The notes under the pieces: generated by a model
Databases searched by the model: none
What the model was told of the DNA's origin: nothing
Seen by the model: only the letters and a program-made list of their open reading frames with translations
Shown: positions 41,063 to 62,613 of the stretch, piece after piece
Position numbering within the stretch: position 1 is the stretch's first letter
How the letters are laid out: the number at the start of each line of letters is the position of its first letter
Source: a virus
Length of the DNA: 64,000 nt
Virus record (IMG/VR): IMGVR_UViG_3300036770_003657
Span: 62,001 to 126,000 of that record
Reading direction: 5' to 3' (one strand)
Translations under genes and position numbers: made by a program

Positions 41063-41127
41063 TGAGAAATTCAGTATTTTTGGTAAATAAAAGTATTAAA
41101 TTTTTTACTTCAAAGGAAGATAAATGA
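41062..41127 (+). CDS. Possible 21-residue peptide between fibre and giant genes
   Basis: ATG 41062 starts inside the preceding stop (TGATG) and the frame ends at TGA 41125-41127, overlapping the giant gene start (ATGA). The peptide is MRNSVFLVNKSIKFFTSKED plus a final Lys. The perfect overlap at both ends would let ribosomes pass from one large gene to the next. A similar short frame (MKRDSLSIILNKKGSVKG...) sits in the same place at 62662. A late-promoter-like GGTAAATA (41082-41089) lies within it, so the region could instead be a plain leader. Confidence 0.35.
   Translation: MRNSVFLVNKSIKFFTSKEDK
41082..41089 (+). promoter_or_regulatory. Weak late promoter candidate GGTAAATA before the giant gene
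   Basis: It carries the TAAATA core 35 nt before the giant gene ATG, followed by the ribosome site AAAGGAAG (41113-41120). Weak as a motif, but the giant gene needs a nearby start of transcription or long read-through. Confidence 0.3.
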
Positions 41128-44100
41128 GCACAAATATTAGATTTAAGCGTAGTGATATACCTGGCAAAGTACCATCACTAGAGAGTATTGACCTAGGCGA
41201 ATTAGCACTTAATACAGCCGATGGTAAACTGTTTATGAAGCAGGAAATCAAAGCACCACCTGGAGTGGCTGCTATTCAAAAGATCATCGAGATTGGTGCA
41301 ACAGAAGTACCTAATGTACTTTACGTTGCAAAGAATGGTGATGACAGCAACAGCGGAAGGACACTAGGCCAAGCTTTTTTGACACTGAAGAAAGCACTAA
41401 GCATAGCGACCCCTGGTACAACTATTTTCTTAAAGAGTGGGGAGTATATTGAAGATAACCCATTACGTGTTCCAGCTCGTGTGTCAGTTGTTGGTGACAA
41501 CCTGCGTAATACCACAGTACGTCCAAAGAACCCAACCAAGGATATCTTTTGGGTATACAATGGTGCTTATATCTTCTGTATGAACTTTAAGGGTCATATT
41601 GCACCTAGTGCGGCAGTATGTTTCCCACCAGACGGTAGTGCTGGCGAGATCGTAACAAGTCCATACACCCAAGCGGTTACAAGTATTACAACTACTGGTA
41701 CAGGTATGCGTGTTGACGGTGCATTGACAACAGGCCTACGCTCAATGGTTTGTGATGCGTTTACACAATATAACCAAGGTGGTATTGGTATTCACATGTT
41801 GAACAGAGGTAATACTCAGCTTGTATCTATCTTTACAATTTGCTGTGACATTAGCTTTATGTGTGAGAACGGTGGTTTCTGTTCAGTTAACTTGTCAAAC
41901 AGCTCATTTGGTAACTACGGTCTTGTAAGTCGTGGAGCCAGTGAACCACTATATCGTGGTGTTGTTAAGAAGTCAGCTGGTCGTCAGATCACATTTAAGA
42001 ATTTAGCAAGACGTCCTAACATTGGTGATGGTGTACTTTTTGCCGATTACAACCAAAGAACCTGTGATAGAGACAATGGTCTTGTAGTAGATAGTTTAGC
42101 ATTTGACTTACTGTACGAAGGCACTACTCAAAGTACATTTAGTGGCCTACGTTATTGGAAGAAAGATGATATCACTACAGGAATAGAACAACAAGAACAG
42201 ACAGCAGCAGCTATCAAACGTGCTCAGACAGTTGCTAGAGCTGTGGTAAAAGATGTAGCATTTACAAGTCCAAGTAATAGTGTACAGCAAGTATTGTCAG
42301 CTGCACTAGGTATTAGTGTAGGTAGTGACACAGCCAAGAGAATTATTACTGAAGAATTTGATATTATCAGTAAAATTGTAGCAGATGGTCCAAATAGCCC
42401 AGCTCTAATTATTGGACCTGATCTAGATGCAGCAGAACCAGAATATAAAAAATTAAGAGAACAAGTTTTAGATAGAAAAGCTCAAATTGTTGATGAAACA
42501 ATTACTTTCTTAAAGACAAACTATCCTACACTTGCATATGTAACATCAAAGTGTAAGCGTGACGTAGATTTGATCATCGAAGCAGTTATCGATGATATGA
42601 TTTTTGGTACAAATTATAAAACAATTAAGGCAACTCTTTCATATTTGAAAGCTACCGTTAATGAATATAATGTTCCAGAAAATCAAAGAGTAGCCACTAT
42701 TGAAGCATATAAGTTTGCTAGAGACCGTATTGTTCCTTTAGTTCAAGAAGATGCCACACTATTAGCTAGAGTACAGGCTAATTTTGAAATTGTAACAAAA
42801 GGTCTAGAACAGGATGCAGCAGCACCAAATGCAAGAGGTGCAACATTTATTAAGAATTTATTAGATCCAAGCAACGCTGATTACGGTTTAGTATTCCCAG
42901 CTCAACAGGATACTGATGCTGATGTTGTTAACCTAGTTACAAACTTACAGGAAAACAAGAATTTTGTTATTGCAGAAGTTATTGATTACATCAATAAGAA
43001 TTGGCCAGAAGTAGTTAGATACGGATATAGTGAAACTACTTGTAGTCGTGATTTAGGTTATGCTATTGATGCAATTTGTTATGACATTATTTACGGTGGA
43101 AATAGCCAGACATTAGATGCTGCTAAGAGATACTATAACTATGCTAGCGGCCTAAGTGAACTACGTAGTAGTGAAGAAGTTCCTGCCACTATTGATGCTT
43201 TTGGTCGTGCTCAATTACTAGCCCAACGTGTAGTTATTAAGGATGAAATTGAAGCCACTTCTAATGCAACACAGGTAATAAATGGTTTAACAGCTACAAC
43301 TCAAACACAAGTTAATAAACTTGGTGGATTGTTTAGTGTACTGTTAAAACAATTAGAAACAAGTACAGTAGGCACCAGTGATTTTATTCAACCTAATGGT
43401 ATGCGTTTAGATGATGAAGGGTTAGATAATGCTTATGCTCTACTACAAGCAAACAAGGCATTCATTAGAAATGATGTTGTAAATTATCTAAGCAGAGCAT
43501 ATCCAGGATTTGACTACGATAGAGTAAAATGTGCTCGTGATGTAGACTATATTGTTGACAGCGTTTGTTTTGACCTAGTACACGGTGGTAATCGTCAGGC
43601 TGTTACAGCTGGTATTTACTATTATGATTTCAATGAAGAAACAAATGTACTAAAGAGTGTAGTACCAAATCAAATCAAGCAAACAGTAAATGCCTACAAG
43701 TACATGAAGGAATTGCTACGTGATGTACTAACCTGTAGCCCAGTTCCAAATCCTTGGCAAGGCAATGTGCCACAAATTACAGATCTTCCAGCAGCCACAG
43801 GTAGTGAAGTAGTTGCAGTGGGCAATTTGATTGATATTATCAATGAGATCTTACAAGAAGGCCCAAATAATACAGAAGATAGTATCCAAAGAATCAAGCA
43901 ACCAATTGGTCTAACAGCAAGCTCAGATCCTAATAAGATTCGTGCATTTAATCTATTGATGGCAAACCGTCAATTTATTCGTGCTGAAATGATTGCTTAT
44001 ATTAACCAAAACTGGTATACAATCAGTGATGGTGATACACAATTTGCTCGTGTTAATACAGCAACAGATCTAACACTTGGTACAACTACAACAGGTTATC

Positions 44101-47100
44101 CAACTGTAACATATCAGCCAAGTTTATACAAATCTATTCGTGATGCAGTATTGGCAGCTAAAGAAGATATTAAGACAGAAACAATTAAGTTTATGGCTAA
44201 CAGCTTCTTTGACAACTTTAGCTTTAACAAGCCAAAGTGCTATAGAGACGTTGGTCTTATTTTAGATGCTATCCTAAGTGATATGATCTTTGGCAGTAAC
44301 TATAAGACAGTTACAGCAGCCATTAGCTACTTACGTGCATATGCCAGTGAAGTAGTTGGCGCACAGAAAGTACAAACAGTGGCCAGCTTAAAAGCTGCAA
44401 AAGATATTACACTACGTAGAATTGTAACACCAGCTGCTAAAGAAGAAATTAGCACAAGATTTGATATCGTTATCAATATTTTAGATGGTGCAAGAGTAAA
44501 TGATCTTGGAGAAATTACAACAAATGCTACAGTGGATGGTGTAAGTTATACTCAATTATCTGGTTATGCTAGTGCATTGAACTATCCAATCCCAGTAAGA
44601 AATAACGAAGAAGATATTGATCGTTATACAGCAGTTAACATTCTACGTGACAATATGGCCTTTATTAAGGAAGAGATTGTCAGTTATATTGATGCTAACT
44701 TTACTCTAAATGAATTTGACAGAGAAAAGTGTGCTCGTGATGTAGGATTTATTGTTGATGCACTTGGATATGACCTAGTATTTGTTAGTAACTTCCGTGC
44801 TATCAGTGCAGGACGTAGTTATCTAAGAGCTAACAGTGCTAAAGTTTCAGGAAGTCAAAAACTAGCAACTTTAGGTTCATTTAGATATCTCAAGAAATTA
44901 GTAACAGAACTAGTTAAAGGTAACAACCTAGCAGTCAATAGTGTTCAACGTGGTATGGATATCATTATTGATATTCTTGACAAAGGTGAGGAAGCAACAC
45001 CTAAGTATATGATTCCATTCCCAGCAACAGGACGTAGTGTAGAATACAAACGTGCTCGTGATCTAGTTCAAAAGAATAGAGAGTTTATTATTGATGATGT
45101 ATTAACTTACATTAACACACCAGGTTTGGAATTACTTCCAGGTGAAGTGGAATTTAAGTTACTAACAGCATCAACATCAAATGGTATAACTACTAAAACA
45201 TTTTTTACAGATGGAACATTTACTGTAAGTTATACACAAACAGAAACTCGTGTAGTTCTTGCTGTTGGTGATCTAGTGAGAGTAAGTGGTAGATTGTTTG
45301 GTACAAGTAATATTGATGGATTTTCATCACCAGCCACATACAAAGTGGCCAGTAAGACAGATAGTAATTTAGAAGGTGATCCAGCAAAACCAGCAACTAC
45401 AGAGTTCAAACTAGTAAATCTTGACGGTAGCGCAGTAACAACATTTGGTGGCCCAACTGGTAAAACTACAACAATGAGATTTGAACAGGTTAAGGCTGCT
45501 AATTATGCAGATCCAGCTGGATTTGATATTAGAAAATGTCGTCGTGACCTAGAACTAATCCTAGATGCTGTATATTATGATACAACTTATGGTGGTACAC
45601 TAGAATCAGAAGTAGCTGGTAAGAGCTATGTAGCTGGAGCATTAAGTCAATTAGATCCATTAGGTGGTCAAGGTGATGAAGTATATGCTACACTAAGAGC
45701 TTACAACTATTTGAAATCTCTAATTAGTACAGTGGCTCAAGATATTGTTTGGGTACCAACTGTTGGCAACACAACTACACAGGTACGCAGTCCAAATGGT
45801 AGTGATGGTAGTGCTACTGCTGCTAAGGAAATGGAAACTTGTATCAAATTAATTATTAAGTTAATTGATGACAGCGTAACTGAAAGCCCAGCATTTACAG
45901 ATTTGACCACAGTAACAAGTGCCCCAAGTACTGATTGGTGTGATCCAGCACTAGTTAAAGCACAGAAGGCACTACAGGCTGGTAAGGAAGTTACAAAAGA
46001 ACAGGTTACAGATTTTGTAGATGAAAACTATGTATTATTTGGTTATGACAGAGATAAGTGTGCTCGTGATGTAGGTTATGTAATCGAAGCAGTACGCTAT
46101 GATATGCTGTTCAACAGCAACTTCCGTAGTATTGTAGCTGGTCGCAGCTACTATCGTGCTATGAGCAGTGTAGTTGTTAAGGATCAAAAGACAGCAACAT
46201 TGGCCAGTTTCCAACACTTAAAAGATAAGTTGTTAGAAATTGTCAAGCCAGTTAATCCAGATAATCCAACAACAGCTGAATCTGTTAGTGTACAGCGTGT
46301 TACACGTAGTATGAATATTATTCTCGACATTTTAGAGAATGGTATTGCAGTTGAGCCAACAATATTGTTGACAGAGCCAACTGGTGGTACAGGTAATGCT
46401 TATGCTAGTGCAGATCGTGCTCAATTACGTGATGATATTCAAGCTAATCGTGTTACAATTGAAGATGCTCTAATTACTTGGATTGATGGCCAAACAGTAA
46501 CAGGTCAACCATTTGAGGGTGTAACTTACAATGAAACAGCCTGCCGTAGAGATGTTGAGTATATTTTAGATGCATTGATTTATGACTTGACCTATGGCGG
46601 TGAATTAGAAACAACCGTTGCTGCTCGTGCTTATTATGGTGGTACAACTGATATTAATCTTGCATTAGGTTCAGATGAAGTAGCACTCACATTGGCTGCT
46701 TATGCACAACTTAAGACAATTATTGATTCAAATTCAGCCGCAAGTGTTACACCAACAAATGATCTAATTGATATAATCATTGATTATATTAATACAGGTA
46801 CAGAAGTTGCTGCTGCTACACCAGATTTTAGTTGGGTTGATAATGGCATCAGAGTGTTTAACGATAAACTTGCACTAACTGCTACAGTTAATAAATTAAA
46901 AATGTCTGTAACAGATTTTGTAGACTTAAACTTTGCCTACAATAGAGACAAGTGTTATAGAGATGTTGGCTTCCTAATTGATGCACTGTGTTATGACCTA
47001 CTATATGGTGGTAACGTTGACACAACTCAGGCTGCTATTGCTTACTTTGATGGTGCAGTTACTCCAAAGAGTACAATTCCTAAGCAGATCATTCAAACTG

Positions 47101-50100
47101 TGGCTGCTTATGAAAGACTAAAAGAAGTTCTAGATCAAGTTGTACAATTAAAAGATGTAACACCAAGTGGTAATCAGTTTGAAGCCAAGGCAAGAGCAAC
47201 GGCCAGTATGGACCTAGTTATTAAATTAGTTAAGGACGGTCCAGCATTTACTCCTAAGAAGCCATTCCTAATGCCAGCACCAACAAGTGGTGCAAATTGT
47301 GCTGCTGATGCTGATTGGTTAAATGCTACAAAGATGATTTCTGCTAACAGAGCATTCTTAACAGCAGAAGTTACAGCATTTATTAAGGCTACATATCCAT
47401 CATTAGTATACAATCAAGTCAAATGTGAGCGTGATGTAGACCTAATTATTGATGCTGTACTTTATGATCTGACATATGGTGGTAAGGTAGCAACTACATT
47501 GGCAGCAGAAGCATACTATGAAGGTACTAGTGATACATTAAGTGGTGTAGCAATTACTGGCACAGCAGGTCAATTTAGCTGTACATCTACAAAATTAACA
47601 GTAGGTGATACCGTAAAAATCACAGGAACATTAGGTGGTACTGGTACTATAACAGGTTATGCTACAGGTGATGTGTACAAGATTAGTGTAACTAATGGAT
47701 CAACAACATTTACCCTTGTAAATCTTGATGATACAGCCATTGTAACTACAGCAGGAACTCCAACAGGATTAACATATACTCATGGACAACTTCCAGCAAG
47801 TTTATCTGGTGAATTAACAGAAAGCCTAGCAGCATATACATATTTAGGTGATCTATTAGAACTAGTAGCAGCAGGTGAAAAAGTTGCTACAAGTGCAAGA
47901 GACACATATCAAAATATTGTAGTACAGCGTGTAGGCGTAGGTGATGCTAATGGCGATGCAGCAACAAGAGCAGGTGCTCTAGTTAAAACAGTTCTAAATA
48001 GAATTATTGATGGTGATGCAGATACAACTGCGGCTGCTATTGCAGGCCCAAGTACAGCTTGGGTTGATGAGAAACTAGTTGCTCTAAGTAATGCTATTGA
48101 TAATGCAACATTTAGATCTGATGTCAAAGCAGAAGTCAATACACTACTAACAACTAAGTTTGATATTGGTTATACTGGTACACAAAAGACACAATGTGAA
48201 CAAGATATTGATGCAGTAATTGATGCTGTACGTTTTGATGTCATGTTTGGTAGCAATTATCGTAGTCAACTAGCAGGTAACGCTTACTATCGTGGCTTTA
48301 GTGGTCTTGCAAATGTACTAGGCGCACAGAAAGATGGTAGTGTAGCAACATTTGAGCTAGTAAAAGATGCTATCCTAGAAAAAGTTGCTCTATACACTGT
48401 AGAACAGGATAAAGGTGGTCAGGCTGGTAGCACTGCTGCTGGTGATGCTGCTTATGATTTAATTCAGTTGATTATAGATGACTTAAATGATGACGGAGTT
48501 ACAGAGACAGAAGCACTTGTTGATTGGGTTGATTTAGATTTACAAGACCTAAATGACATTTTAATTGACAGTAAGACTGGTGCAAATGGTGCAGATGATC
48601 TCCCACAATTAGTAACTGATTATATTGATAATAGATATGAAGGTTCTTTAACTTATAATCAAGCTGATTGTCAAGAGGATATTCGTAGTATCATCGATGC
48701 AGTACGCTTTGATATGATGTTTAACAGCAACTTCCGTACAATTACTGCTGCTCGTGCATATTTCCGTGCTCAAGCTAGTAAGGTAGTTGGTGAACAGAAG
48801 GCTGCTACAATTGAAGCATTCAAGTTCTTAAAAGAAAAATTAAGTGCTATAGTTATTACTAGTGCTCAAGCAGTTGAGCGTGTACAAGATAGAATGGATC
48901 TTCTAATTCGTATTGTTGATAAGGGTGAGAAGGCAATTCCAGCTTATGTATTACCAAGCCCAACAGGCTATAATACAAGTAGAGCAGGTACAGTAAGTTT
49001 TGGTTATGCTAGAAACTTAATTGAAACAAACAGAGAGTTCTTAAAAGCAGAAGTTCTAAAGTTTATTAGAACAGATGCTAGCACAAACACATTAAATTTC
49101 AATGAAACTAAGTGTTTAAGAGATTTGGATCTAATTTTAGATGCTGTGTACTATGATATGACCTACGGTGGAAACATGGAAAGTATCATTGCTGCTGGCG
49201 CTTATTATCTTGGCGCAACAGCTGGTGATATTACAGGTGATCAAACCGCAGCTATCACAGGTGATGATGTAGCCGCTACAATTGATGCCTATGAGAGACT
49301 AAGAGATATGATCAAACTAGTAGCTGAAGGTAAAGATGTAAGTGATCTACAAATCATCTTCCCTCAGGTACAAGGTGATGCAGGCAGTACAGCAGGTGCT
49401 CAAACAGCTAAGAACTTGGCCTATGTAATTAGAAACTTAGTAAATCAAGAGGGCTCATTTAAAGTAACTGCCCCAACACTTGCTCAACCAAGTATAGGTT
49501 GGGTACCAGCTGCTCTAAGACAGCCAAATGATTTAATTGTTCTAATGCAAACAAGTGATACTGCTAGTGGTGCATATGTGGGTAGAGCTAGCATTCAATC
49601 ACAGGTAACAGAATGGGTAAGACTACAATTAAATGCAGCTAATTTTAATGCAGCACCAAGTGCTATAGCAGATCCAGGTTCTGGACCATTAGCTCAGTAT
49701 TTTGATGATAACGGTATTACAGCAGTAGGTAACTGGACTGACTGGTTCGTACTAATACCAGTAACTGCTATTGTATCAGGTCAAACATATAAGATTGCTG
49801 ATCTTGGTACTACAACTACTTGGGCTAACCATGCTGCTAGTGGTAATACAAGTGCTGTGGGTGATGAATTTGTTGCTAACGGCACAGCAGGAACAGGTGA
49901 TGGTAAAGTTGTAAGAGTATTAAAAGCCAGTCAAATGGAGCCAGGAAAGAGATATAAGATTAAGGACGCAGGTGATACTAACTGGAATACTTATTCAACC
50001 AGTATTATTACAGCAACAAGTGGGAACACATTTATTGCTAATGAAGATGCTCCACCAACTGCTTCAGGTACTGAAGGTACAGTGTATGAAATGTTTACAT

Positions 50101-53100: not shown

Positions 53101-56100
53101 TTGATACACTAACTGCCGATGCTGAAGATCCTGATACACCACTAGTAGTTGGTCGCGAATACAAGATTATAAGTCAAGGTAAGACTACTGTTCCAGCTGG
53201 TGAATTTATTGTAGGCGGTCAATACAAAATTTTACAAGTAGGTGATGTAGGTCAGGTAGGTACTACAGATTATACCACTACAGGTGTAATTCCAGGAACA
53301 AGTACTCCAGCAACTAATACAGTTGGTCTAGTATTCCAAGCAACAAGTACTGGTATTGGTACAGGTCAGGCAATATATTATACAGATTATACACTATTTG
53401 GTGCAAGAAACAATGATGTAGGTACTGTATTTGTTGCCACAGGTTCACCAAGTAGTGCAACTGGTGGTAGTGGTCAAGTTAAGAGCGTGAGCTTCCGTGA
53501 ACGTGCTGAAAGACTATTTGATCTGTTCCTAGCTATATTAGACAGTGATACAGTAGCCATCGAAGCATTAGGTTATGATGTTGATACAGACTTTGATGTT
53601 CCAGCTAAACAAGGTCTAAGACCTACTACACAGTTGAACGGTGGTATCAATAATAGTACAACAACAATTACAGTTGACAGTAATGTTGAATATCCAACTG
53701 CTGGCATTTTATTAATTGGTACAGAAGAAATAACCTATACTGGTAAGAGTGGTACTACAGGATTTACAGGAGTAGCAAGAGGTGCTAATAGTACAACTGC
53801 TGCTGCTCATGCAGATAATGCAGTGGTTACTTGTTTAAATCCAAGTTATTATTTACTAACTCCACCAGAACTAGAAACAACTGACTTCGATAATACAAGT
53901 GATTATAATGATGCCGTAGCTGCTCAAACAGCTAGAATCACAGCACGTAATCAAATCAATGCTGCTAGACAGAGCCTAGAAGATGATCTAATTACATGGA
54001 TTGATGCACAAGTAGCAGCCAATGCAGGTGATGGTGCTGGTAACTTTGGTACAGCTTTTGAAGCTTACTGGATTGCTAATAGTTATGAGAAGCGTACAAA
54101 GTGTAGAGAGGACATCAAGTTCATTCTAGACGCAATTACATATGACTTAACTTATGGTGGCAATCAAGAAACTGTAGTTGCTGGTAAAGCTTACTATGAT
54201 GGTACAGTATTAAGTGTAGACAAATTAGCTACAATTGATGCTTACACTCACTTTAAGACATTACTTGCTACAGTAGCAGGTGCCAATAGTGGTGATGATG
54301 AAACAGTTACAAAACTTGTTGATGATCTAATCAGTTATATTGATCCAAAGATTGAGGATTTAAGACAAGTTGATGCTGATACAAGTTGGGTTGACAGTGA
54401 ACTATACGTATTCAGTGACAAGCTCAAGGCTGCTGCTAACACAGTAGCTAAGGCTACAACTGATTATGTAACTGCTAACTTTGCAGGTCTAAGCTATGAT
54501 GTAGCAACTTGCCAACGTGACGTAAAACTAGTAATAGATGCAGTACGTTGGGATATGATGTTTAATAGTAACTTCCGCACTATCGTAGCTGCTCGCAGTT
54601 ATTATAGAATTCAAGCAGCAACAGTAGTTGGTGCCCAGAAGGAAGCCAGTCAAAAGGCATTTGAAGTTGTTAAAGTTGCTCTAGATGATCTAGTCAAGAG
54701 TGACAGTGTAGCACAAGCTCGTGTATCAGCTCTAATGGATATTGTTATTAATCTACTAGCAGCCGTTGATGAAACAGCAGCTTTAGCTACATTACCAGCA
54801 ATTAGTACTCCATATGGTGGCACACCAAATGCCAGCAACATTGGATACTTAAATGCTCGTGATCGTATTGCTAGAAACAGAGACTTTATCGTTGATGAAA
54901 TGAGTGAATGGCTAGATGATCAAAACTATACATTTCCTGCATACGATAAAACTGTTTGCCTACGTGATATTGAATTAGTTCTTGATGCTGTAGCATATGA
55001 TTTAACATATGGTGGTAATATGGCCAGTGTTGAAGCAGGTAAGGCCTACTATGCAGGTGCAGTACTGCCAAATACAACAGGTACAGATCACGTTGATGCT
55101 ACTAAGGCAGCATTTGCTCATCTAAGAAATATAATTGAAGACGTAGCTCTTAACAATACAATTACTCCTACAACAGGTGTAACAGTAACATATGTTCAAG
55201 ATGATCAAAGCAAGGAAACAGCAGACGACGCTCAAGCAGGTGCTAAGGTAGTTGATCTAGTTGATATAGTAATTACTTGGGTTGACAGCAATAGTGGTAC
55301 AGCTGAATTCCGTCCAAGCACAAACTGGGTTGACAATAATCTGGCGCTAATTGCTAGCACAATGCTAGATCGTAAAGAAAGTTTAGGTTTACAGGTAACT
55401 GACTTTATTGATGCAGAGTATCCAACATTATTTGCTGATTCAGATACAGCAGCAGGTGAAGATCCTGGATATAGTAAAGACAAGTGCAAGCGTGATGTTG
55501 GTTTAGTCACAGAAGCTGTACGTTGGGACATGATGTTTGCTACAAACTTCCGTAGCTGGACAGCAGGTCGTGCTTACTATAGACAAGCTGAAAACTTACT
55601 AGCTGATGGATTAGCAAGTCAAGGTCAGAAAGAAGCCAGCCTAGCAGGTTATAGATTCTTGAAGGGCCTGTTAGCTACTATCGCAGGCAATAATGTAACA
55701 GCCAGCAATAGAATAAAAACTGCTATGAACGTTGTAATTGATACTTTAGAGTATGGTCCAACTACACGTAATGCTTATGATGCTAGATTGGTAAAAGCTG
55801 TTGAACTTATTGATGCTAATAAGGATGCATTGATAGCCACTATGACAACTTGGTTACAAGATGGTGCTCAAAGTTTAACTGATGGTGTGAGCTTTGGTAC
55901 TAATTATAGTGAAGAAAAGTGTATTCGTGACTTAGGTTATTTAATTGATGCTATCAAGTATGACTTAACCTATGGTGGTAATATGGAAACTGTCACAGCA
56001 GGTTTAGCCTACTATGATGGTGTTGTATTACAAGGTGGTGTTGGTAACACACAACCAGGTGATGCAAGTCATATTGCTAAGACACAGGAAGCATTTACAT

Positions 56101-59100
56101 ATTTAGGTACACAAATAGCAGCTCTTGCAACAATGCCAGCAAGTATGGCTGACAAAGTTGCAGCTCTAATCACTGATGTAAATCAAAGTATTAGAACTGC
56201 TGATGAAAATCTTGTAATTGGTAAGCAATATAAGATTATAAGCGTAGGCGATACAGACTGGAACACTGTAGCAGGTACAACAGGTGTTACATATGTTGCA
56301 GGTGATATAGTTAAGGTAGCTGCTGTAGGTGCAGGAACTGGTTATGCTACTCTTGTTAATAATGAAGTTAAGGCTGACGCAAGTTGGGCTGAATCAAGTT
56401 TACAAGAATTAGCAGTCACAATGAGACTACAACAAACAGCTATTAAGGCACAAGTTACTGATTATGTAGAGGATAAATTCCCAGGACTAATGACCGAAGC
56501 ACAAAAAGTTAAGTGTGCTCGCGATGCAGGATTATTAATTGATGCTGTACGTTGGGATATGTTGTTCAACAGTAATTTCCGTAGTATCACAGCAGGTCGT
56601 GCATACTATAGAACAGTACTAGCTCTAGTAGCAGATGCTCTTGCAGGTATTAATCAGAAGCAGGCCAGTGTAGCAGCATTTACATTCTTAAAAGGTATCT
56701 TACAAGGTATTGTTGCAAGTAATGCAATTGCGTACGAGCGTGTAACAGCCAATATGGATATTATCCTAGAGATAATTGAAAATGGTTTAGGTGATCAGGC
56801 TAGTCCAGCAATTACTTATGGTGCTGTAGCAGATGCACAACGTCAAGCTGCACACGATAACTTAATTGATAACATTCCATTCTTAAAGCAGGAAATTATC
56901 AAGTATGTTGATGCTACTTTTGACAATATTGAGTATGATGAAGTCAAGTGTGCTCGCGATGTAGAGTTAATTACTACAGCAGTTGCTTACGATATGGTAA
57001 CAGGTAGTAATTATCAAACTGTTACTGCTGCTCGTGGCTACTTGCGTAGCTATGCTAGTGACGTTATAACTGAAGCCAAGCAGAAGCATATTACATTATT
57101 AGCCTTCAAGTATCTAAAGAACTTGCTAACTAATTATGTTGGTGGTAATACAGCAGCTAAGAACAGCATTACAGCTAACATGGACACAATAATCAATACG
57201 GTTTATGATGCACATCAGTCAACCGTGACTGCTGTTACAGCTAGTAATGATACATTTACAACCAATGATACAAGTTGGATGGAAGTTGACACAGCTATTG
57301 TATTTGGTGGTACATTAATTGGTGGCGTAACTGGTGGTACAACTTATTATGTTAAGAGTGTAGAAAGTGCTACAGAGTTTACAATAAGTGCTACACAAGG
57401 CGGTGCTACATTTGATGTTGCTTCAGATGCTAGTGGTTCAATGGCAGTTAAGAAAGTACAAACATTTAATGTAATTATACCAACTGCAAGTGTTACCGTA
57501 AGCGATGATCAAACAACTTTAAACACTTATTTGACTAATAATACCAATATTGAAACATTAGTTACAACGGGTATTAACAATAGTGGTGGTTATGGTTCAG
57601 CTGCTAATGCAGACATTTGCAAGCGTGATATTAGACTACTAGTACAGGCACTAGCATTTGACTTAACATATGGCGGTAACTGGGCAAGTATTACTGCTGC
57701 TAAGAGTTACAGAGATGGTACTAACGCTCTAAACATTCCAAGCGGTGAAGCAACTAATACAAACACTGCATTTAATGCCGTACGTGATAAGATCAAAACA
57801 GATACTTCGTTGGACACTGCTACTGATACAAGAATTGATACTCTTGTAGCTTATGTAACAGGTGTAATTGGTAGTGCAACATATGCTACACCAGCAATAG
57901 TTTATCCAGAACTATTAGGTAGTGATAATGCACTAGAAGCAGCTAGAAATGTTCTAATAAGCAATATTGTTAATGCTAAGGCTAAGGTAATTCGTTATGT
58001 AAATGATCGTGCTTACTTCCAATATGATGTATTAAAATGTGAGCGTGACATTGGATTTATTCTAGATGCCGTAGCAATTGACGTAGCAACAGGCAGTAAC
58101 TATCTAAGTGTACAGGCAGGTATTAGTTACTTACGTGCTAATGCTACAAATGCTGTAGCTGCTCCTCAGAAATGGGCAATCCTAGCAGGATTGAATGCTG
58201 CTAAACAGATTCTAGCTGCAAGAGTTATTACAAACCAAGCAGCAGTTAGTGCAATTCGTGCTAAACTAAGTGTAGTGATTGATATTATCAATGACGGTGT
58301 AGCACCAAGTGTAACATTAAATGGTAGCGATCAAGTAACAGCGGAAAACACAACAGGTAGTCCATATGTTAGCTTGTCATATCCAACTACTGTAACAGGT
58401 GGTGTAGTAGGCAGTATAACTGTTCAAAATAGAATTGATGCTGCTACAACATTACGTACAGGAACAAGTGGTTCAGATCTAATTAGATGGATAGTTATAA
58501 ATGAAGTATTAAATGCAGTCAACGGTACTGCTGCTGCTGGTACTTATGATAAAGCCAAGTGTGCAAGAGATGTAGCATTGATATTAGATGCACTAGCACA
58601 CGATTTATTATACGGTGGTAACTATGCTTCAGTTCGTGTTGCTAATAGTTATTATGCTGGAACAGCTAATCAGTTAGGTAGTAATCCAGATGAAATAGCT
58701 GCTATCACAACTGCTCTAACTGAAGTTAAGAATCGTTTAGATAACTACGCTCCATTTATTGGTACAGGTATTGAAACTAGACTAGATACATTAGTTGATT
58801 TGATCGAAAATGTAATTGATACTGGTAGTACAAGCGCAGAACTTGCAGGTCTTGTAGTTGAATTACCAACTGCTGCAATCCAAGCAAGTGCTCTAGAATC
58901 AGCATATGACACTTTAGTTGCTGCTAAAGAAGCAATGACATATGAAATTTTAGATAGCATCAATAGCAGACCATTCCTAGTATACGATCAAGCCAAGTGT
59001 GAAAGTGATGTAGAAACTATTCTTGACGCACTAAGATATGATATTATGTTAGGCAGTAACTTCAAGAGTATAAGAGCAGGTCAAGCATACTTAAGAAGTT

Positions 59101-61172
59101 ATACTAAGGCAGTTACTCAAGAGCAAAAAGCAGCTACCATTGGAGCACTATACTTTATTAAGAAGTCAGTGTCCGTGGCATTAGATGATGATGCTGATGT
59201 AGCAGATGCAAGTGTAACTATAGCACGTCAACTAATGGACTTAATAATAGATATTCTAGACAGAGGTCCAGCAGTAGTGCCAGGTGATGTAGCTAAACTA
59301 GCTCCTCCATATCAGTCAGAAGTTGTTACAATAACTGCTACTGCTAATACACAAGCAGTATCAACTATATTAAACAACAAGGCATTTATTAAGGCTGAAG
59401 TACGTTCGTTCTTAGACAGAAACTACAGTGAATTAGATTATGACAAGATTAAGTGTGAAAGAGATGTGGATTATATCTTAGACGCACTACGTTATGATCT
59501 AGCATTTGCTGCTGCTAGTGATCAAGCAAATAGTGAAACACGCGAAGCAGGTCTAGCATATTGGAAAGGAAATGCAGGTATTACATTGGGCACACACCCA
59601 AGTAATATCGATGATCCAGACTTTGATGGAGTAACTACTGGTAATGAAAATGAGCAAGATGCTACTGTGGATGCATATACAGAATTAGCAAATATCATTG
59701 AAGCTATATTAAACAATAGTTACACAGCTACTCAAACAGTGGTATCAAAAGGTACTTATGTAAGTGGTGCTAATGCTGCTAGTACTGTAGCTAAAGACTT
59801 AATTCTTAATATTAAGAATATGGTTGCTGCTACAAGTTTAGCAGGTGCTGAAGCTGTGATTCCAACAGCTGATATAAGATATCCAGCACCAGCAGGTGAC
59901 ACTGATGTTAATGATGTATTAGCATTAGATGTTGGTACTAATCTAAAAGCAACACTACCAGCACTAACTACTACAGAAATTACAGCAGCATTTGCTACAC
60001 AGTTCTTCGTGTATAACAAAACTAAGTGTGCTCGTGATGTTGGATTTATTGTAGAGGCTCTAGCATTTGATGCACTGTATGGTGGTAACAAAGAATCTAG
60101 AGTTGCTGCTGATCAATATGCTTACAAAGGTGGTTTAGTAATACCTGTAGCTACAAAAGGACCAACAGTTGGTGGCTTCGCTAGACTAAAAGCAATCATA
60201 GATGATATTGTAGCAGGTGATGCAGTTACAGCGACTACTGGAGTTATAGAAGCACAGCAAGGAACTAGCAATCCAAGTACTTTAACTGGTGTAAGTGATC
60301 TAGTTCAAATTACCATAGATGTACTAAATGGTAAAGCATTACCTGCTCTAGTAGATCCAACATTCAGTGCTGTAACTGGTTACAAACCAGACAACTTAGT
60401 AGTACGTAGCATTGTGCGTGATAGTAGTCCAAGAATAGCAGCAGAGACTATTACATACATCAATGAAACATATGCTGGATTTGGTTATCTACAAGATACT
60501 TGTAAGCGTGACATCGGTCTAACCTGCGATGCTATGGCTTATGACTTGATCTATGGTGGTAATAGTAGAACTAAGTTTGCTGCTGAACAGTATTACAGTG
60601 GTGGTCGTTTCCAGATCCCAGCTGATAGTAAGAGTGCTACAGTGGCCAGCTTTGAGTATCTAGGTGCATTGATCAGAAAAGTAATTAAGAATGAGGCAAT
60701 TATCACATTCCAAAACTTTGTTGATCAAGACAAGAGCAATGAGCAGGCTACAAATAGTGAAGTTGCTAATGTGGCAGCATTGACAGATGCGTTTACAGAT
60801 ATCTTAACAAATGGTTACATCAGTGTACTACAACTTGATGCAACATTTAATGGTAGTGTAGATGATAACACATATGCTACATTCCACCAGGTAAGTACTA
60901 TTACAACAACTGGTCACACACTAGAATGGGTTGGAACTGGTATTGACGTAGATAGTGCTTTACCATACAACGGCGGTGTACCAAAACCAGAGAATCAATT
61001 GGTTAGCGAGAAGGGCGGATTTATTAACTTCACCAGTACAGATGAAAAAGGTGACTTTAGAATTGGTCCAGACTTAACAATCAAGCGTGACTCAGGTAGT
61101 ATCGTAGGTAGAGCGTTTAACAAGAGCTTGTTAGGAGTTGTAACACCATACATCCTAGCACTACAAGGTTAA
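41124..61172 (+). CDS. Giant 6,682-residue repeat virion protein (fibre/adhesin-like)
   Basis: One frame of 20,049 nt without interruption, about 0.7 MDa. N-terminus: MSTNIRFKRSDIPGKVPSLE then LGELALNTADGKLFMK, a fibre-type virion anchor. Residues ~65-300 form a right-handed beta-helix/pectate-lyase-like domain (VLYVAKNGDDSNSGRTLGQA; LKSGEYIEDNPLRVPARVSV). From ~310 to ~6,490 come 34 helical repeats anchored on C-x-R-D-(V/L/I) followed by ILDAVRYD-type helices. Beta domains are inserted near nt 45130-45490, 47540-47800, 49770-50090, 52740-53470, 53640-53835, 56210-56360 and 57215-57470. The C-terminal ~120 residues (FTSTDEKGDFRIGPDLTIKR; SLLGVVTPYILALQG) match ends of phage fibre proteins. 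No catalytic motif was found. Structural role is confident; adhesion is inferred. Confidence 0.85.
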   Translation: MSTNIRFKRSDIPGKVPSLESIDLGELALNTADGKLFMKQEIKAPPGVAAIQKIIEIGATEVPNVLYVAKNGDDSNSGRTLGQAFLTLKKALSIATPGTTIFLKSGEYIEDNPLRVPARVSVVGDNLRNTTVRPKNPTKDIFWVYNGAYIFCMNFKGHIAPSAAVCFPPDGSAGEIVTSPYTQAVTSITTTGTGMRVDGALTTGLRSMVCDAFTQYNQGGIGIHMLNRGNTQLVSIFTICCDISFMCENGGFCSVNLSNSSFGNYGLVSRGASEPLYRGVVKKSAGRQITFKNLARRPNIGDGVLFADYNQRTCDRDNGLVVDSLAFDLLYEGTTQSTFSGLRYWKKDDITTGIEQQEQTAAAIKRAQTVARAVVKDVAFTSPSNSVQQVLSAALGISVGSDTAKRIITEEFDIISKIVADGPNSPALIIGPDLDAAEPEYKKLREQVLDRKAQIVDETITFLKTNYPTLAYVTSKCKRDVDLIIEAVIDDMIFGTNYKTIKATLSYLKATVNEYNVPENQRVATIEAYKFARDRIVPLVQEDATLLARVQANFEIVTKGLEQDAAAPNARGATFIKNLLDPSNADYGLVFPAQQDTDADVVNLVTNLQENKNFVIAEVIDYINKNWPEVVRYGYSETTCSRDLGYAIDAICYDIIYGGNSQTLDAAKRYYNYASGLSELRSSEEVPATIDAFGRAQLLAQRVVIKDEIEATSNATQVINGLTATTQTQVNKLGGLFSVLLKQLETSTVGTSDFIQPNGMRLDDEGLDNAYALLQANKAFIRNDVVNYLSRAYPGFDYDRVKCARDVDYIVDSVCFDLVHGGNRQAVTAGIYYYDFNEETNVLKSVVPNQIKQTVNAYKYMKELLRDVLTCSPVPNPWQGNVPQITDLPAATGSEVVAVGNLIDIINEILQEGPNNTEDSIQRIKQPIGLTASSDPNKIRAFNLLMANRQFIRAEMIAYINQNWYTISDGDTQFARVNTATDLTLGTTTTGYPTVTYQPSLYKSIRDAVLAAKEDIKTETIKFMANSFFDNFSFNKPKCYRDVGLILDAILSDMIFGSNYKTVTAAISYLRAYASEVVGAQKVQTVASLKAAKDITLRRIVTPAAKEEISTRFDIVINILDGARVNDLGEITTNATVDGVSYTQLSGYASALNYPIPVRNNEEDIDRYTAVNILRDNMAFIKEEIVSYIDANFTLNEFDREKCARDVGFIVDALGYDLVFVSNFRAISAGRSYLRANSAKVSGSQKLATLGSFRYLKKLVTELVKGNNLAVNSVQRGMDIIIDILDKGEEATPKYMIPFPATGRSVEYKRARDLVQKNREFIIDDVLTYINTPGLELLPGEVEFKLLTASTSNGITTKTFFTDGTFTVSYTQTETRVVLAVGDLVRVSGRLFGTSNIDGFSSPATYKVASKTDSNLEGDPAKPATTEFKLVNLDGSAVTTFGGPTGKTTTMRFEQVKAANYADPAGFDIRKCRRDLELILDAVYYDTTYGGTLESEVAGKSYVAGALSQLDPLGGQGDEVYATLRAYNYLKSLISTVAQDIVWVPTVGNTTTQVRSPNGSDGSATAAKEMETCIKLIIKLIDDSVTESPAFTDLTTVTSAPSTDWCDPALVKAQKALQAGKEVTKEQVTDFVDENYVLFGYDRDKCARDVGYVIEAVRYDMLFNSNFRSIVAGRSYYRAMSSVVVKDQKTATLASFQHLKDKLLEIVKPVNPDNPTTAESVSVQRVTRSMNIILDILENGIAVEPTILLTEPTGGTGNAYASADRAQLRDDIQANRVTIEDALITWIDGQTVTGQPFEGVTYNETACRRDVEYILDALIYDLTYGGELETTVAARAYYGGTTDINLALGSDEVALTLAAYAQLKTIIDSNSAASVTPTNDLIDIIIDYINTGTEVAAATPDFSWVDNGIRVFNDKLALTATVNKLKMSVTDFVDLNFAYNRDKCYRDVGFLIDALCYDLLYGGNVDTTQAAIAYFDGAVTPKSTIPKQIIQTVAAYERLKEVLDQVVQLKDVTPSGNQFEAKARATASMDLVIKLVKDGPAFTPKKPFLMPAPTSGANCAADADWLNATKMISANRAFLTAEVTAFIKATYPSLVYNQVKCERDVDLIIDAVLYDLTYGGKVATTLAAEAYYEGTSDTLSGVAITGTAGQFSCTSTKLTVGDTVKITGTLGGTGTITGYATGDVYKISVTNGSTTFTLVNLDDTAIVTTAGTPTGLTYTHGQLPASLSGELTESLAAYTYLGDLLELVAAGEKVATSARDTYQNIVVQRVGVGDANGDAATRAGALVKTVLNRIIDGDADTTAAAIAGPSTAWVDEKLVALSNAIDNATFRSDVKAEVNTLLTTKFDIGYTGTQKTQCEQDIDAVIDAVRFDVMFGSNYRSQLAGNAYYRGFSGLANVLGAQKDGSVATFELVKDAILEKVALYTVEQDKGGQAGSTAAGDAAYDLIQLIIDDLNDDGVTETEALVDWVDLDLQDLNDILIDSKTGANGADDLPQLVTDYIDNRYEGSLTYNQADCQEDIRSIIDAVRFDMMFNSNFRTITAARAYFRAQASKVVGEQKAATIEAFKFLKEKLSAIVITSAQAVERVQDRMDLLIRIVDKGEKAIPAYVLPSPTGYNTSRAGTVSFGYARNLIETNREFLKAEVLKFIRTDASTNTLNFNETKCLRDLDLILDAVYYDMTYGGNMESIIAAGAYYLGATAGDITGDQTAAITGDDVAATIDAYERLRDMIKLVAEGKDVSDLQIIFPQVQGDAGSTAGAQTAKNLAYVIRNLVNQEGSFKVTAPTLAQPSIGWVPAALRQPNDLIVLMQTSDTASGAYVGRASIQSQVTEWVRLQLNAANFNAAPSAIADPGSGPLAQYFDDNGITAVGNWTDWFVLIPVTAIVSGQTYKIADLGTTTTWANHAASGNTSAVGDEFVANGTAGTGDGKVVRVLKASQMEPGKRYKIKDAGDTNWNTYSTSIITATSGNTFIANEDAPPTASGTEGTVYEMFTYDITKCERDVQLILEAVRYDMMFDTSFRTATAARSYWRQQANNALSTGSTALSVYPQKEQSTLLFTFMKSVLQTLPAKYPNKALSDLGEGQIPGIVNGSTAYTRIGKLMDYIIGAVGAANLAAVNALLPAKPYSLPLPAGGTNNSSDANFRAARDLIELNRNFIKAEVIAWIDQQKREEREGFQQAEFNFNRSECAEDIDLILDAIYYDLTYGGNMESYTAGLAYYSGIGIESLPADEREATIRAYNYMGMLLYDVARNQLTTSYQTALEQVKGTAGSIETSRRLGELVDIVINVVKGGPKQVPLRVDPDFLAGDETLAFVRIAVQEQKQELQARIADYIDSFILQYNTEKCARDVGLILDAAMYDLVLNSNFQSVTAGSVYLQKAANVVYSTQIGPQLQAIKFIRDQVIRISQTPPLVKNEDAIGRITNLFDTMFDIIDKGVEVAPPIVNIPPVGAAFNPNAVNAANSIIANKEFLKEEVVAYITANYKTYDQSRCSRDVGLIIDAALYDLLLDTNYNSVKAGLAYRRATSSLVLTDQLLETLGGIDFAKQRVVELLDDADAIASVTRSFELISSIIGGGSVPTSRVPLPGSSVYALSRPSGSNYRDPAFQTAATALRDAKATLQTAVTAWINSQINGASVGSTWDGFTYDATKQAKCEEDVGYIIDAVAYDLIYGGNMESLNAGLAYYTATADESLPSNDEIQNTIAAYTYLADQVRTTVNAEFTLEPDTDALSAIEAQNLVLGIRNLIDSRANAVATPSIPSQVWVDPLLQEINQTFIQEKKRLQDVVIDYVNEIDRYTDGAISVPADYDKDKCRRDVGLVLDAVRYDMMFGTNFRTIVAGRSYRRALAASGLIGGAQATANLSAFKELKERVLGKKLVGVEITGTGGTFTCTAPVTDRDAPLVVNQPVRVSGVYATGAGTIGTPGTDSEFSNIATQPKTYYIIATNGTTSFTLSAEVGGAAIATTTGDGGAASAGGLTFEIRPSLESLDEVTTQGLLDTLTADAEDPDTPLVVGREYKIISQGKTTVPAGEFIVGGQYKILQVGDVGQVGTTDYTTTGVIPGTSTPATNTVGLVFQATSTGIGTGQAIYYTDYTLFGARNNDVGTVFVATGSPSSATGGSGQVKSVSFRERAERLFDLFLAILDSDTVAIEALGYDVDTDFDVPAKQGLRPTTQLNGGINNSTTTITVDSNVEYPTAGILLIGTEEITYTGKSGTTGFTGVARGANSTTAAAHADNAVVTCLNPSYYLLTPPELETTDFDNTSDYNDAVAAQTARITARNQINAARQSLEDDLITWIDAQVAANAGDGAGNFGTAFEAYWIANSYEKRTKCREDIKFILDAITYDLTYGGNQETVVAGKAYYDGTVLSVDKLATIDAYTHFKTLLATVAGANSGDDETVTKLVDDLISYIDPKIEDLRQVDADTSWVDSELYVFSDKLKAAANTVAKATTDYVTANFAGLSYDVATCQRDVKLVIDAVRWDMMFNSNFRTIVAARSYYRIQAATVVGAQKEASQKAFEVVKVALDDLVKSDSVAQARVSALMDIVINLLAAVDETAALATLPAISTPYGGTPNASNIGYLNARDRIARNRDFIVDEMSEWLDDQNYTFPAYDKTVCLRDIELVLDAVAYDLTYGGNMASVEAGKAYYAGAVLPNTTGTDHVDATKAAFAHLRNIIEDVALNNTITPTTGVTVTYVQDDQSKETADDAQAGAKVVDLVDIVITWVDSNSGTAEFRPSTNWVDNNLALIASTMLDRKESLGLQVTDFIDAEYPTLFADSDTAAGEDPGYSKDKCKRDVGLVTEAVRWDMMFATNFRSWTAGRAYYRQAENLLADGLASQGQKEASLAGYRFLKGLLATIAGNNVTASNRIKTAMNVVIDTLEYGPTTRNAYDARLVKAVELIDANKDALIATMTTWLQDGAQSLTDGVSFGTNYSEEKCIRDLGYLIDAIKYDLTYGGNMETVTAGLAYYDGVVLQGGVGNTQPGDASHIAKTQEAFTYLGTQIAALATMPASMADKVAALITDVNQSIRTADENLVIGKQYKIISVGDTDWNTVAGTTGVTYVAGDIVKVAAVGAGTGYATLVNNEVKADASWAESSLQELAVTMRLQQTAIKAQVTDYVEDKFPGLMTEAQKVKCARDAGLLIDAVRWDMLFNSNFRSITAGRAYYRTVLALVADALAGINQKQASVAAFTFLKGILQGIVASNAIAYERVTANMDIILEIIENGLGDQASPAITYGAVADAQRQAAHDNLIDNIPFLKQEIIKYVDATFDNIEYDEVKCARDVELITTAVAYDMVTGSNYQTVTAARGYLRSYASDVITEAKQKHITLLAFKYLKNLLTNYVGGNTAAKNSITANMDTIINTVYDAHQSTVTAVTASNDTFTTNDTSWMEVDTAIVFGGTLIGGVTGGTTYYVKSVESATEFTISATQGGATFDVASDASGSMAVKKVQTFNVIIPTASVTVSDDQTTLNTYLTNNTNIETLVTTGINNSGGYGSAANADICKRDIRLLVQALAFDLTYGGNWASITAAKSYRDGTNALNIPSGEATNTNTAFNAVRDKIKTDTSLDTATDTRIDTLVAYVTGVIGSATYATPAIVYPELLGSDNALEAARNVLISNIVNAKAKVIRYVNDRAYFQYDVLKCERDIGFILDAVAIDVATGSNYLSVQAGISYLRANATNAVAAPQKWAILAGLNAAKQILAARVITNQAAVSAIRAKLSVVIDIINDGVAPSVTLNGSDQVTAENTTGSPYVSLSYPTTVTGGVVGSITVQNRIDAATTLRTGTSGSDLIRWIVINEVLNAVNGTAAAGTYDKAKCARDVALILDALAHDLLYGGNYASVRVANSYYAGTANQLGSNPDEIAAITTALTEVKNRLDNYAPFIGTGIETRLDTLVDLIENVIDTGSTSAELAGLVVELPTAAIQASALESAYDTLVAAKEAMTYEILDSINSRPFLVYDQAKCESDVETILDALRYDIMLGSNFKSIRAGQAYLRSYTKAVTQEQKAATIGALYFIKKSVSVALDDDADVADASVTIARQLMDLIIDILDRGPAVVPGDVAKLAPPYQSEVVTITATANTQAVSTILNNKAFIKAEVRSFLDRNYSELDYDKIKCERDVDYILDALRYDLAFAAASDQANSETREAGLAYWKGNAGITLGTHPSNIDDPDFDGVTTGNENEQDATVDAYTELANIIEAILNNSYTATQTVVSKGTYVSGANAASTVAKDLILNIKNMVAATSLAGAEAVIPTADIRYPAPAGDTDVNDVLALDVGTNLKATLPALTTTEITAAFATQFFVYNKTKCARDVGFIVEALAFDALYGGNKESRVAADQYAYKGGLVIPVATKGPTVGGFARLKAIIDDIVAGDAVTATTGVIEAQQGTSNPSTLTGVSDLVQITIDVLNGKALPALVDPTFSAVTGYKPDNLVVRSIVRDSSPRIAAETITYINETYAGFGYLQDTCKRDIGLTCDAMAYDLIYGGNSRTKFAAEQYYSGGRFQIPADSKSATVASFEYLGALIRKVIKNEAIITFQNFVDQDKSNEQATNSEVANVAALTDAFTDILTNGYISVLQLDATFNGSVDDNTYATFHQVSTITTTGHTLEWVGTGIDVDSALPYNGGVPKPENQLVSEKGGFINFTSTDEKGDFRIGPDLTIKRDSGSIVGRAFNKSLLGVVTPYILALQG
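42050..60610 (+). repeat. Array of 34 Cys-anchored helical repeats inside the giant protein
   Basis: By hand count 34 units share the pattern C-x-R/E-D-(V/I/L)-x-x-(I/L)-(I/L)-(D/E)-A-(V/L)-x-(Y/F/W)-D. Sixteen continue as LTYGGNMESxxAGxAYYxG (type A), sixteen as MMFNSNFRTIxAGRSYYRA (type B), and two (first and 32nd) are irregular. From unit 13 onwards types A and B alternate almost strictly, so the growth unit was probably an A-B pair. After type B comes V-x-x-Q-K-x-A-T and a helix with FKxLK; after type A comes an AYxxL helix. DNA copies such as 46088-46160, 48697-48770 and 54538-54610 are very alike. Confidence 0.88.
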
Positions 61173-61617: not shown

Positions 61618-62613
61618 ATGGCAGCTCAAGCTAAAGTTGAATTATTTAGTGGTCGTGTAAAGAAAGTCGCAGCCCGCGACATTATGACCAAAGGTTATGG
61701 TACAGGAGATTCAAGATATGAAGTCCGTACACCAGGAGAACCAAAGTCAAGTGGCTACTTAAAATTAAGTGAGGCAGAACCAAACTTATTTGTACCATGG
61801 CGTAGTGTTAATCCAGAAACAAATATAGCCACAGATCAAAACCCAAGAGATGTTTTAGAAGTTGCAACCAAAGTAGCTTATGTATTACCAGACGGTACTG
61901 ATATATCACCACCTAATCAAACATTAAGAGCAATGCTTCTTTCTGACCAGTGGGGAAATAGAACTTGGAGTAATAAAATTGCTTTAGATGCTAATGACAA
62001 TATGATTATTAATAGTAATCTATTTGTTAATGGTACTACAGTTGAAGTTAATACAGTTCAAACTACAATTGATGACCCAATCATTACTATTGGTGGTGAT
62101 GCTCCTGCTACAGACACTAATGGTCAAACTGATCGTGGTATTGAATTCCGTTGGTGGGATCCTCTAGCTCTTGATGGACAAGGTGCAGCTAAAACAGGTT
62201 TCTTTGGTTTTAAAGCCAGCACACGTACTTTTACATTCATCCCAAGTGGTCGTAATGAAAATGAAATTTTTATTGGTGATAGCGGTACAAGTGAAGGTGC
62301 TTTTGAAGTTCCAAACTTACAGACTGAAAATATTACCACAGCTCTTAATCAGAACCTAAGAATAGCACCAAGTGGTACTGGTACTGTAGTTATTGAAAGT
62401 GCTATTACACAAGGTACTTGGCAAGCTGATGTAATTGATGTTGCTTATGGTGGTACTGGTCGTGTAGAATTACCAGAAGGCGGTATATTATTTGGTAATA
62501 ATGATGGTCCAGTAGGTGTTACAAATCCAGCACTAGCTAATGGTAGTTTATTACAAAGTGATTTAGGGGGCAGACCATACTTTAGTAACATAGTAGATTG
62601 CGGAACATACTAA
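61618..62613 (+). CDS. Fibre-type protein with virion-anchor N-terminus
   Basis: 331 residues. The N-terminus MAAQAKVELFSGRVKKVAAR and later GYLKLSEAEPNLFVPW are shared with the protein that starts at 62758, so this is a common attachment module. Residues ~135-190 have a FVNGTTVEVNTVQTTIDDPI segment followed by ITIGGDAP, a fibre shaft motif also seen in the 384-residue protein. The C-terminal part (APSGTGTVVIESAITQGTW; DVAYGGTGRVELPEGGILFG) matches the GGTG/'AYGGTG' motif widespread at phage fibre tips. It ends in DCGTY, like the 587-residue fibre (DCGEY). Likely an appendage subunit, adsorption role inferred. Confidence 0.72.
   Translation: MAAQAKVELFSGRVKKVAARDIMTKGYGTGDSRYEVRTPGEPKSSGYLKLSEAEPNLFVPWRSVNPETNIATDQNPRDVLEVATKVAYVLPDGTDISPPNQTLRAMLLSDQWGNRTWSNKIALDANDNMIINSNLFVNGTTVEVNTVQTTIDDPIITIGGDAPATDTNGQTDRGIEFRWWDPLALDGQGAAKTGFFGFKASTRTFTFIPSGRNENEIFIGDSGTSEGAFEVPNLQTENITTALNQNLRIAPSGTGTVVIESAITQGTWQADVIDVAYGGTGRVELPEGGILFGNNDGPVGVTNPALANGSLLQSDLGGRPYFSNIVDCGTY

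Follow-up and report, generated by a model that had tools for sequence, protein, structure and literature searches.

A 20-kb gene in the virus record IMGVR_UViG_3300036770_003657 encodes a giant fibre-type protein with 34 copies of a globin domain, and the phage also has bilin enzymes. According to sequence profiles and structural models, the domain very probably shares its fold and ancestry with phycobiliproteins and other globins of the bilin-binding type. The record is 399,796 bp long. The window analysed here is the stretch of 64,000 nucleotides corresponding to its bases 62001-126000.

A preliminary description of this DNA had proposed one open 20-kb frame for a virion protein of about 0.7 MDa with fibre-like ends, a helical repeat array in the middle and fibre genes on both sides; the frame, the ends and the array are confirmed, and the virion role is likely. 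The 6,682 codons contain no internal stops, and the computed mass of the product is 719,268 Da (719 kDa; pI 4.6). GC content is 52% and 43% at the first and second codon positions and 19% at the third, the latter fitting a real AT-rich gene. Relatives from IMG/VR have unbroken frames of 6904, 6792, 6653, 6653, 6362, 6204, 5995, 5995, 5616, 4745, and 4724 aa that contain this domain array as well. Domain types have a shared order in the giant gene and these relatives, and their best matches are collinear with 47-70% identity over the main stretches. Over the compared stretches pS (0.53-0.61) exceeds pN (0.19-0.27), indicating that the frame is under purifying selection.

The N-terminus resembles tail-fibre and baseplate-wedge families, and both ends of the protein are shared with the tail-fibre families phrog_17885 and phrog_3442 (Table 1). 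In the segment following the N-terminal one, a DUF1565 match covers residues 71-127 (4.7e-5). A profile of the repeats located 34 globin copies within residues 307-6592, with an all-helical predicted fold. The genes on either side belong to phrog virion and tail families. Beta-rich inserts, with types such as 'GKxYKIxxxGDTxW' and 'VxITGTxGxF', recur between and inside the globin domains; a further one lies at 56220-56381 of the window. The globins themselves (window 42042-60899) are of two types, with GGN and xSN forms. Their order is partly alternating and largely kept between phages, which recalls alpha and beta subunits.

Table 1. Features of the giant gene and its surroundings (window coordinates).
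Feature	Position	Strand	Remarks
Upstream structural gene	39299..41062	+	phrog_6002 virion structural
Likely ribosome-binding site AAAGGAAG	41112..41119	+	purine-rich; read directly from the sequence, just 5' of ATG
Giant ORF	41124..61172	+	6,682 aa; ATG at 41124, TAA at 61170-61172
N-terminal fibre/baseplate-attachment segment, residues 1-63	41124..41312	+	phrog_17885, phrog_3442, phrog_13163, phrog_32294
Probable right-handed beta-helix, residues 64-301	41313..42026	+	DUF1565, tail-fibre families; fold inferred
Globin domain 1	42042..42419	+	CDRD
Globin domain 2	42429..42869	+	CKRD
Globin domain 3	42909..43409	+	CSRD
Globin domain 4	43407..43913	+	CARD
Globin domain 5	44115..44555	+	CYRD; Pfam Phycobilisome match, residues 1036-1120
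Globin domain 6	44607..45077	+	CARD
Inserted non-globin, beta-rich module	45078..45500	+	gap between domains, recurrent sequence pattern
Globin domain 7	45501..45917	+	CRRD
Globin domain 8	45933..46403	+	CARD; used for structure prediction
Globin domain 9	46404..46850	+	CRRD
Globin domain 10	46866..47291	+	CYRD
Globin domain 11	47298..47720	+	CERD; interrupted by beta module
Inserted beta-rich module	47721..48056	+	gap in globin array
Globin domain 12	48057..48566	+	CEQD
Globin domain 13	48522..48974	+	CQED
Globin domain 14	48996..49505	+	CLRD
Inserted beta-rich module, 'YKI' type	49506..49949	+	gap in globin array
Globin domain 15	49950..50489	+	CERD
Globin domain 16	50532..51038	+	CAED
Globin domain 17	51036..51455	+	CARD
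Globin domain 18	51471..51872	+	CSRD
Globin domain 19	51915..52406	+	CEED
Globin domain 20	52401..52826	+	CRRD; interrupted
Inserted beta-rich modules, 365 aa	52827..53921	+	part matches phrog_2885/phrog_4406
Globin domain 21	53922..54398	+	CRED
Globin domain 22	54384..54830	+	CQRD; in tandem model
Globin domain 23	54831..55340	+	CLRD; in tandem model
Globin domain 24	55323..55778	+	CKRD; in tandem model
Globin domain 25	55770..56219	+	CIRD
Globin domain 26	56382..56819	+	CARD
Globin domain 27	56826..57278	+	CARD
Globin domain 28	57492..57920	+	CKRD
Globin domain 29	57921..58340	+	CERD
Globin domain 30	58425..58856	+	CARD
Globin domain 31	58878..59345	+	CESD
Globin domain 32	59331..59870	+	CERD
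Globin domain 33	59919..60392	+	CARD
Globin domain 34	60384..60899	+	CKRD
C-terminal fibre end, residues 6593-6682	60900..61169	+	C-terminal ends of phrog_17885 and phrog_3442
Downstream structural gene	61618..62613	+	phrog_697

The globin repeat is about 150 aa long and follows the pattern YDxxKC-x-R-D-V-x(4)-DAVxYD-x(3)-G-[GS]-N, then AGxxYY. Its C-x-R-D motif retains Cys and Asp in all 34 copies and Arg in 28 of them, while a shuffled giant protein is expected to have 0.23 such motifs; 34 of the 52 cysteines of the protein occupy the motif position. We aligned 115 domains from this phage and related phages and found the highest relative entropy at C44 (7.0 bits), followed by Tyr74 and R46. 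In this alignment the Tyr and two of the Asp columns show no variation, and the Arg is conserved in 88% of the domains. A looser set of 630 copies has Cys in 582 (92%), Asp in 621 (99%) and Arg in 524 (83%). The copies of cyanophage isolates keep Arg in 23 of 45 cases and sometimes lose Cys.

The domain also occurs elsewhere in the genome. A 2,381-aa protein (minus strand, ~248.2-255.4 kb of the genome) has two weak copies, in one of which the motif reads SKRD, Ser replacing the Cys. A second giant gene (minus strand, ~354.5-366.9 kb) codes for a 4,122-aa protein in which an Mtd_N domain (the N-terminal domain of the major tropism determinant) is combined with five of these globins. C-x-R-D is present in each of the five, and the Pfam Phycobilisome profile has its clearest match in this protein.

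The repeat, which the preliminary description could not place in a named family, is matched by the Pfam Phycobilisome profile (PF00502) above its curated cut-off of 22.2 bits, both in the giant protein (32.7 bits) and in its 4,122-aa sibling (41.7 bits, E 1.5e-10); few single copies match on their own. The preliminary description had also overlooked the motif for bilin attachment and the genes for bilin synthesis in other parts of the genome. The C-phycocyanin alpha model TIGR01338 matches the repeat at 4e-4, far below the TIGR01338 cut-off. A hmmsearch of PDB sequences with the repeat profile has found mainly phycocyanin alpha at a marginal E-value of 0.018, with KCxRD placed on the chromophore motif. 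As the broader 115-row profile weakened this match from 0.018 to 0.08, we relied on profile-profile and fold comparison. For the former, phycobiliproteins were taken from cyanobacterial genomes, using as a query a phycocyanin sequence which served for searching only. Aligned to them by hhalign, the repeat gave 88% and 91% probability over 110-113 columns, as compared to <0.5% for the reversed and column-shuffled control profiles.

AlphaFold2 run without templates predicted a confident six-helix globin fold for domain 8 (pLDDT 90.9, pTM 0.88). Among the best 50 Foldseek matches in PDB, the great majority were phycobiliproteins, ApcE or smURFP, with probabilities mostly of 0.97-1.00, TM scores up to 0.70 (smURFP 7uqa) and 0.65 (ApcE 4xxi), and weak E-values (0.006-0.5); the remainder of these 50 were non-haem or sensor globins. 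The model of three consecutive domains (22-24; pLDDT 77, pTM 0.56) favours neither a rigid rod nor a flexible chain and matches biliverdin-bound smURFP 6fzn with a TM score of 0.78.

The chromophore-attachment residues of phycobiliproteins are C84-x-R86-D87, while Arg93 and the X/Y helices serve alpha-beta assembly. Counting from the Cys, the repeat and phycobiliproteins share C0, R2, D3, Y13, and G18 in a gapless register which extends through the GG after helix E. The Arg93 position is occupied by Asp in 79% of the repeat copies and the X/Y helices of the light-harvesting phycobiliproteins are absent, the domain model starting at the equivalent of helix A/B. Since these assembly elements are missing, we do not call the repeat a phycobiliprotein; it appears to work like, or to derive from, the wider group of bilin-binding globins.

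Phycobiliproteins (PF00502; CpcA/CpcB, ApcA/B and the bilin domain of ApcE) thus have in common with the repeat the globin fold, the C-x-R-D register in helix E with Tyr at +13 and Gly at +18, a similar domain length and the alternation of two domain types. In contrast to them, the phage repeat stands in tandem in one polypeptide, on a fibre-type protein without a phycobilisome, and its bilin is putative. Bilin-binding globins are characterised by the motif CXRD (PMC10151467). Among them, the bilin biosynthesis-associated globins (BBAGs; Rockwell et al. 2023, PMC10151467) of heterotrophs resemble the phage repeat in combining this motif with a genome that encodes heme oxygenase and a bilin reductase, but they are single-domain proteins clustered with these enzymes, whereas in the phage ~217 kb separate the 34 tandem domains from the enzyme genes. 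The same globin domain is present in the giant gp7 and tail-fibre proteins of T4-like cyanophages (S-PM2, P-HM1/2, Syn9, S-SSM4, P-TIM40). These have only ~2-9 diverged copies per protein, with Arg in about half, compared to 34 copies with 28 Arg here. At least four copies were found in P-HM2 (gp7 and tail fibre) and at least nine in S-PM2. The globin repeats also match the tail-fibre family phrog_5342 as well as phrog_4527 and phrog_701; the libraries of these families had given the repeat neither function nor fold.

Among isolated T4-like cyanophages, comparable frames reach 7,352 aa in P-TIM40, 7,312 in P-SSM4, 7,124 in P-SSM7, 6,935 in S-SSM4, 6,603 in P-RSM4, 6,376 in Syn33, 6,200 in S-ShM2, and 6,076 in Syn9; in P-HM2, the comparable giant gene carries the annotation gp7 (baseplate wedge protein). 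To rank the protein with the largest of all phages, as suggested earlier, is fair, but the size is not unique, and among T4-like aquatic phages it is not exceptional, or only moderately so. Mass spectrometry of virions of the cyanophage S-CREM2 identified 286 unique peptides of its 14.9-kb 'long tail fiber' ORF (ORF85; PMC10665884). By analogy with this ORF, and because the matching families are tail or virion ones, the virion role assumed for our protein is likely.

The giant gene sits within a T4-like structural gene module: genes for the portal gp20, prohead protease (S77) and gp23 are located at 25-32 kb of the window, and the opposite strand to the giant gene has gp25 and gp5-like genes (9-11 kb). 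From the family matches at both ends and from the neighbours we infer that the protein belongs to the tail. The gp25 and gp5-like baseplate genes adjoin a 1,749-aa ORF (window 2-5248, minus strand) which runs off the window and contains a CBM5/12 carbohydrate-binding module. A 146-aa protein (window 18750-19190) matches phrog_447 (NAD synthetase) and homing endonuclease families.

Heme oxygenase (2.9e-21) and ferredoxin-dependent bilin reductase (2.3e-16) genes adjoin at 339.7-340.9 kb of the same genome. The reductase gene is ~217 kb from the giant gene, outside any shared operon. On the minus strand, the genes for bilin reductase, heme oxygenase, ClpS, a small heat-shock-like protein and DnaK form a row, with IscU- and IscA-like Fe-S genes and a Gram-negative porin gene no more than 15 kb from the bilin genes. 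The presence of porin, ClpS, IscU- and IscA-like genes suggests a proteobacterial host. A photosynthetic host was also considered, but a search over ~300 kb of the genome detected no cyanophage psbA.

All ten tested records of at least 240 kb contain both the globin domain and the bilin reductase. Five of them were picked via the reductase, two via the domain and two via the portal gene; the tenth is the genome described here. As the ten records are related and some were picked via the reductase or the domain, their co-occurrence is consistent with a functional link but confounded. We do not count it as strong support, since portal-picked and gp23-picked records show the domain to be near-universal in the lineage (10/10). 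Among isolates the association is loose. The pelagiphage Mosig, a phage of non-photosynthetic SAR11, has heme oxygenase and bilin reductase genes (MT647606.1, 39650-40886, beside neck genes; the reductase is 48% identical to the one of this phage) and lacks the globin domain. The domain is also absent from P-SSM2, where a heme oxygenase was detected and, according to the literature, PebS is the bilin reductase. The domain occurs in many cyanophages for which no reductase of this kind was detected, although Synechococcus hosts make bilins themselves. A CpeT-type (T-type) bilin lyase was not found in the ten large phage records, Mosig and P-SSM2. Genes for heme oxygenase and bilin reductase were recognised in phages two decades ago. 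What benefit they bring in hosts lacking phycobilisomes was described as unclear (PMC2984593; PMC11480375), with a bilin-binding globin named as one possible partner of the enzymes (PMC11480375).

Two alternatives concern the gene and the domain as such. The locus is known from a single metagenomic record, which leaves room for an assembly artefact or for translation otherwise than as one protein. This is very improbable: unbroken homologous frames in several independent assemblies, their shared domain order, purifying selection and the divergence of internal copies point to a real, selected gene, and S-CREM2 virions contain a giant fibre according to mass spectrometry (PMC10665884). The internal copies do not exceed 76-80% identity over ~100 nt, making assembly collapse or expansion unlikely. 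Convergence of a helical bundle, with the repeat unrelated to phycobiliproteins and its C-x-R-D coincidental, would agree with the marginal E-values against PDB sequences (0.018-0.08) and with the Foldseek E-values, all of which are above 0.001. We consider it improbable in view of the Pfam matches above the cut-off in two proteins, the hhalign result with its clean controls, the dominance of phycobiliproteins in the fold search and the motif register kept through the GG after helix E.

The more difficult question is whether the globins carry a pigment. In our proposal, the giant gene product would form a fibre that is attached to the tail or baseplate of a T4-like jumbo phage and consists of an N-terminal attachment segment, a beta-helix, 34 tandem globins with beta modules and a C-terminal fibre end. 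The phage heme oxygenase and bilin reductase would make a bilin or a related linear tetrapyrrole for the globins, and this would attach at the motif Cys, as conservation and ancestry suggest. On the virion, the fibre would then resemble a long string of beads, each bearing pigment, and would serve light-dependent adsorption or photoprotection. That its bilin-binding-type globins carry a bilin from the phage's own enzymes is a tentative reading which falls somewhat short of probable. The complete retention of Cys and Asp, the rank of C44 as the most conserved position, the share of cysteines at the motif and the presence of both enzymes in the genome support it. It is weakened by the weak Foldseek E-values, the distance of the enzymes from the giant gene, the negative lyase search, the separate occurrence of bilin genes (Mosig, P-SSM2) and domain (many cyanophages), the incomplete Arg in cyanophages and the missing Arg93 and X/Y helices. 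Its strongest rival, and a serious one, keeps the fold and ancestry but has no chromophore: the globins would be a spacer for a long tail fibre or baseplate arm, with Cys and Asp kept for folding. This is possible, though we would not call it probable. It accounts well for the repeat number, which varies widely among relatives, and for the frequent loss of Arg and occasional loss of Cys in cyanophages. It also fits the Cys-less copy in the 2,381-aa sibling, the occurrence of bilin genes and domain without each other, and the lack of T-type lyase in the records searched. The near-absolute Cys is explained less well: it is the single most conserved position, accompanied in the aligned set by invariant Asp and by Arg in most domains, and a ligand-free domain would not be expected to retain the exact chromophore triad.

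Adsorption of S-PM2 is reportedly light-dependent. Some cyanophages fail to adsorb in the dark (PMC7238727; PMC7112961); P-HM2 adsorption depends on light, while the podovirus P-SSP7 does not show this effect (PMC7112961). As P-HM2 has the domain in gp7 and the tail fibre, a role of the domain in light response or photoprotection may be taken as a lead, by analogy. The fullest form of the proposal, a covalently pigmented virion fibre with dozens of bilins per chain from the phage's own enzymes, which controls adsorption by sensing light or screening it, seems rather unlikely at present.

Giant modular fibres are already known; a 34-globin shaft with the attachment motif in a phage with bilin enzymes is undescribed in the literature searched. 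The search covered open-access journal papers, none of which named phycobiliprotein-like domains in tail proteins of phages. If pigment is present on the virions, this would be categorically new. The globins would then constitute a phage-encoded acceptor for the products of phage bilin genes, and the domain in S-PM2-like and P-HM2-like cyanophages would explain their light-dependent adsorption. The domain offers a concrete candidate for the light-dependent adsorption of some T4-like cyanophages (PMC7112961, PMC7238727). Even without pigment, large unnamed families of tail proteins would acquire a fold and an ancestry.
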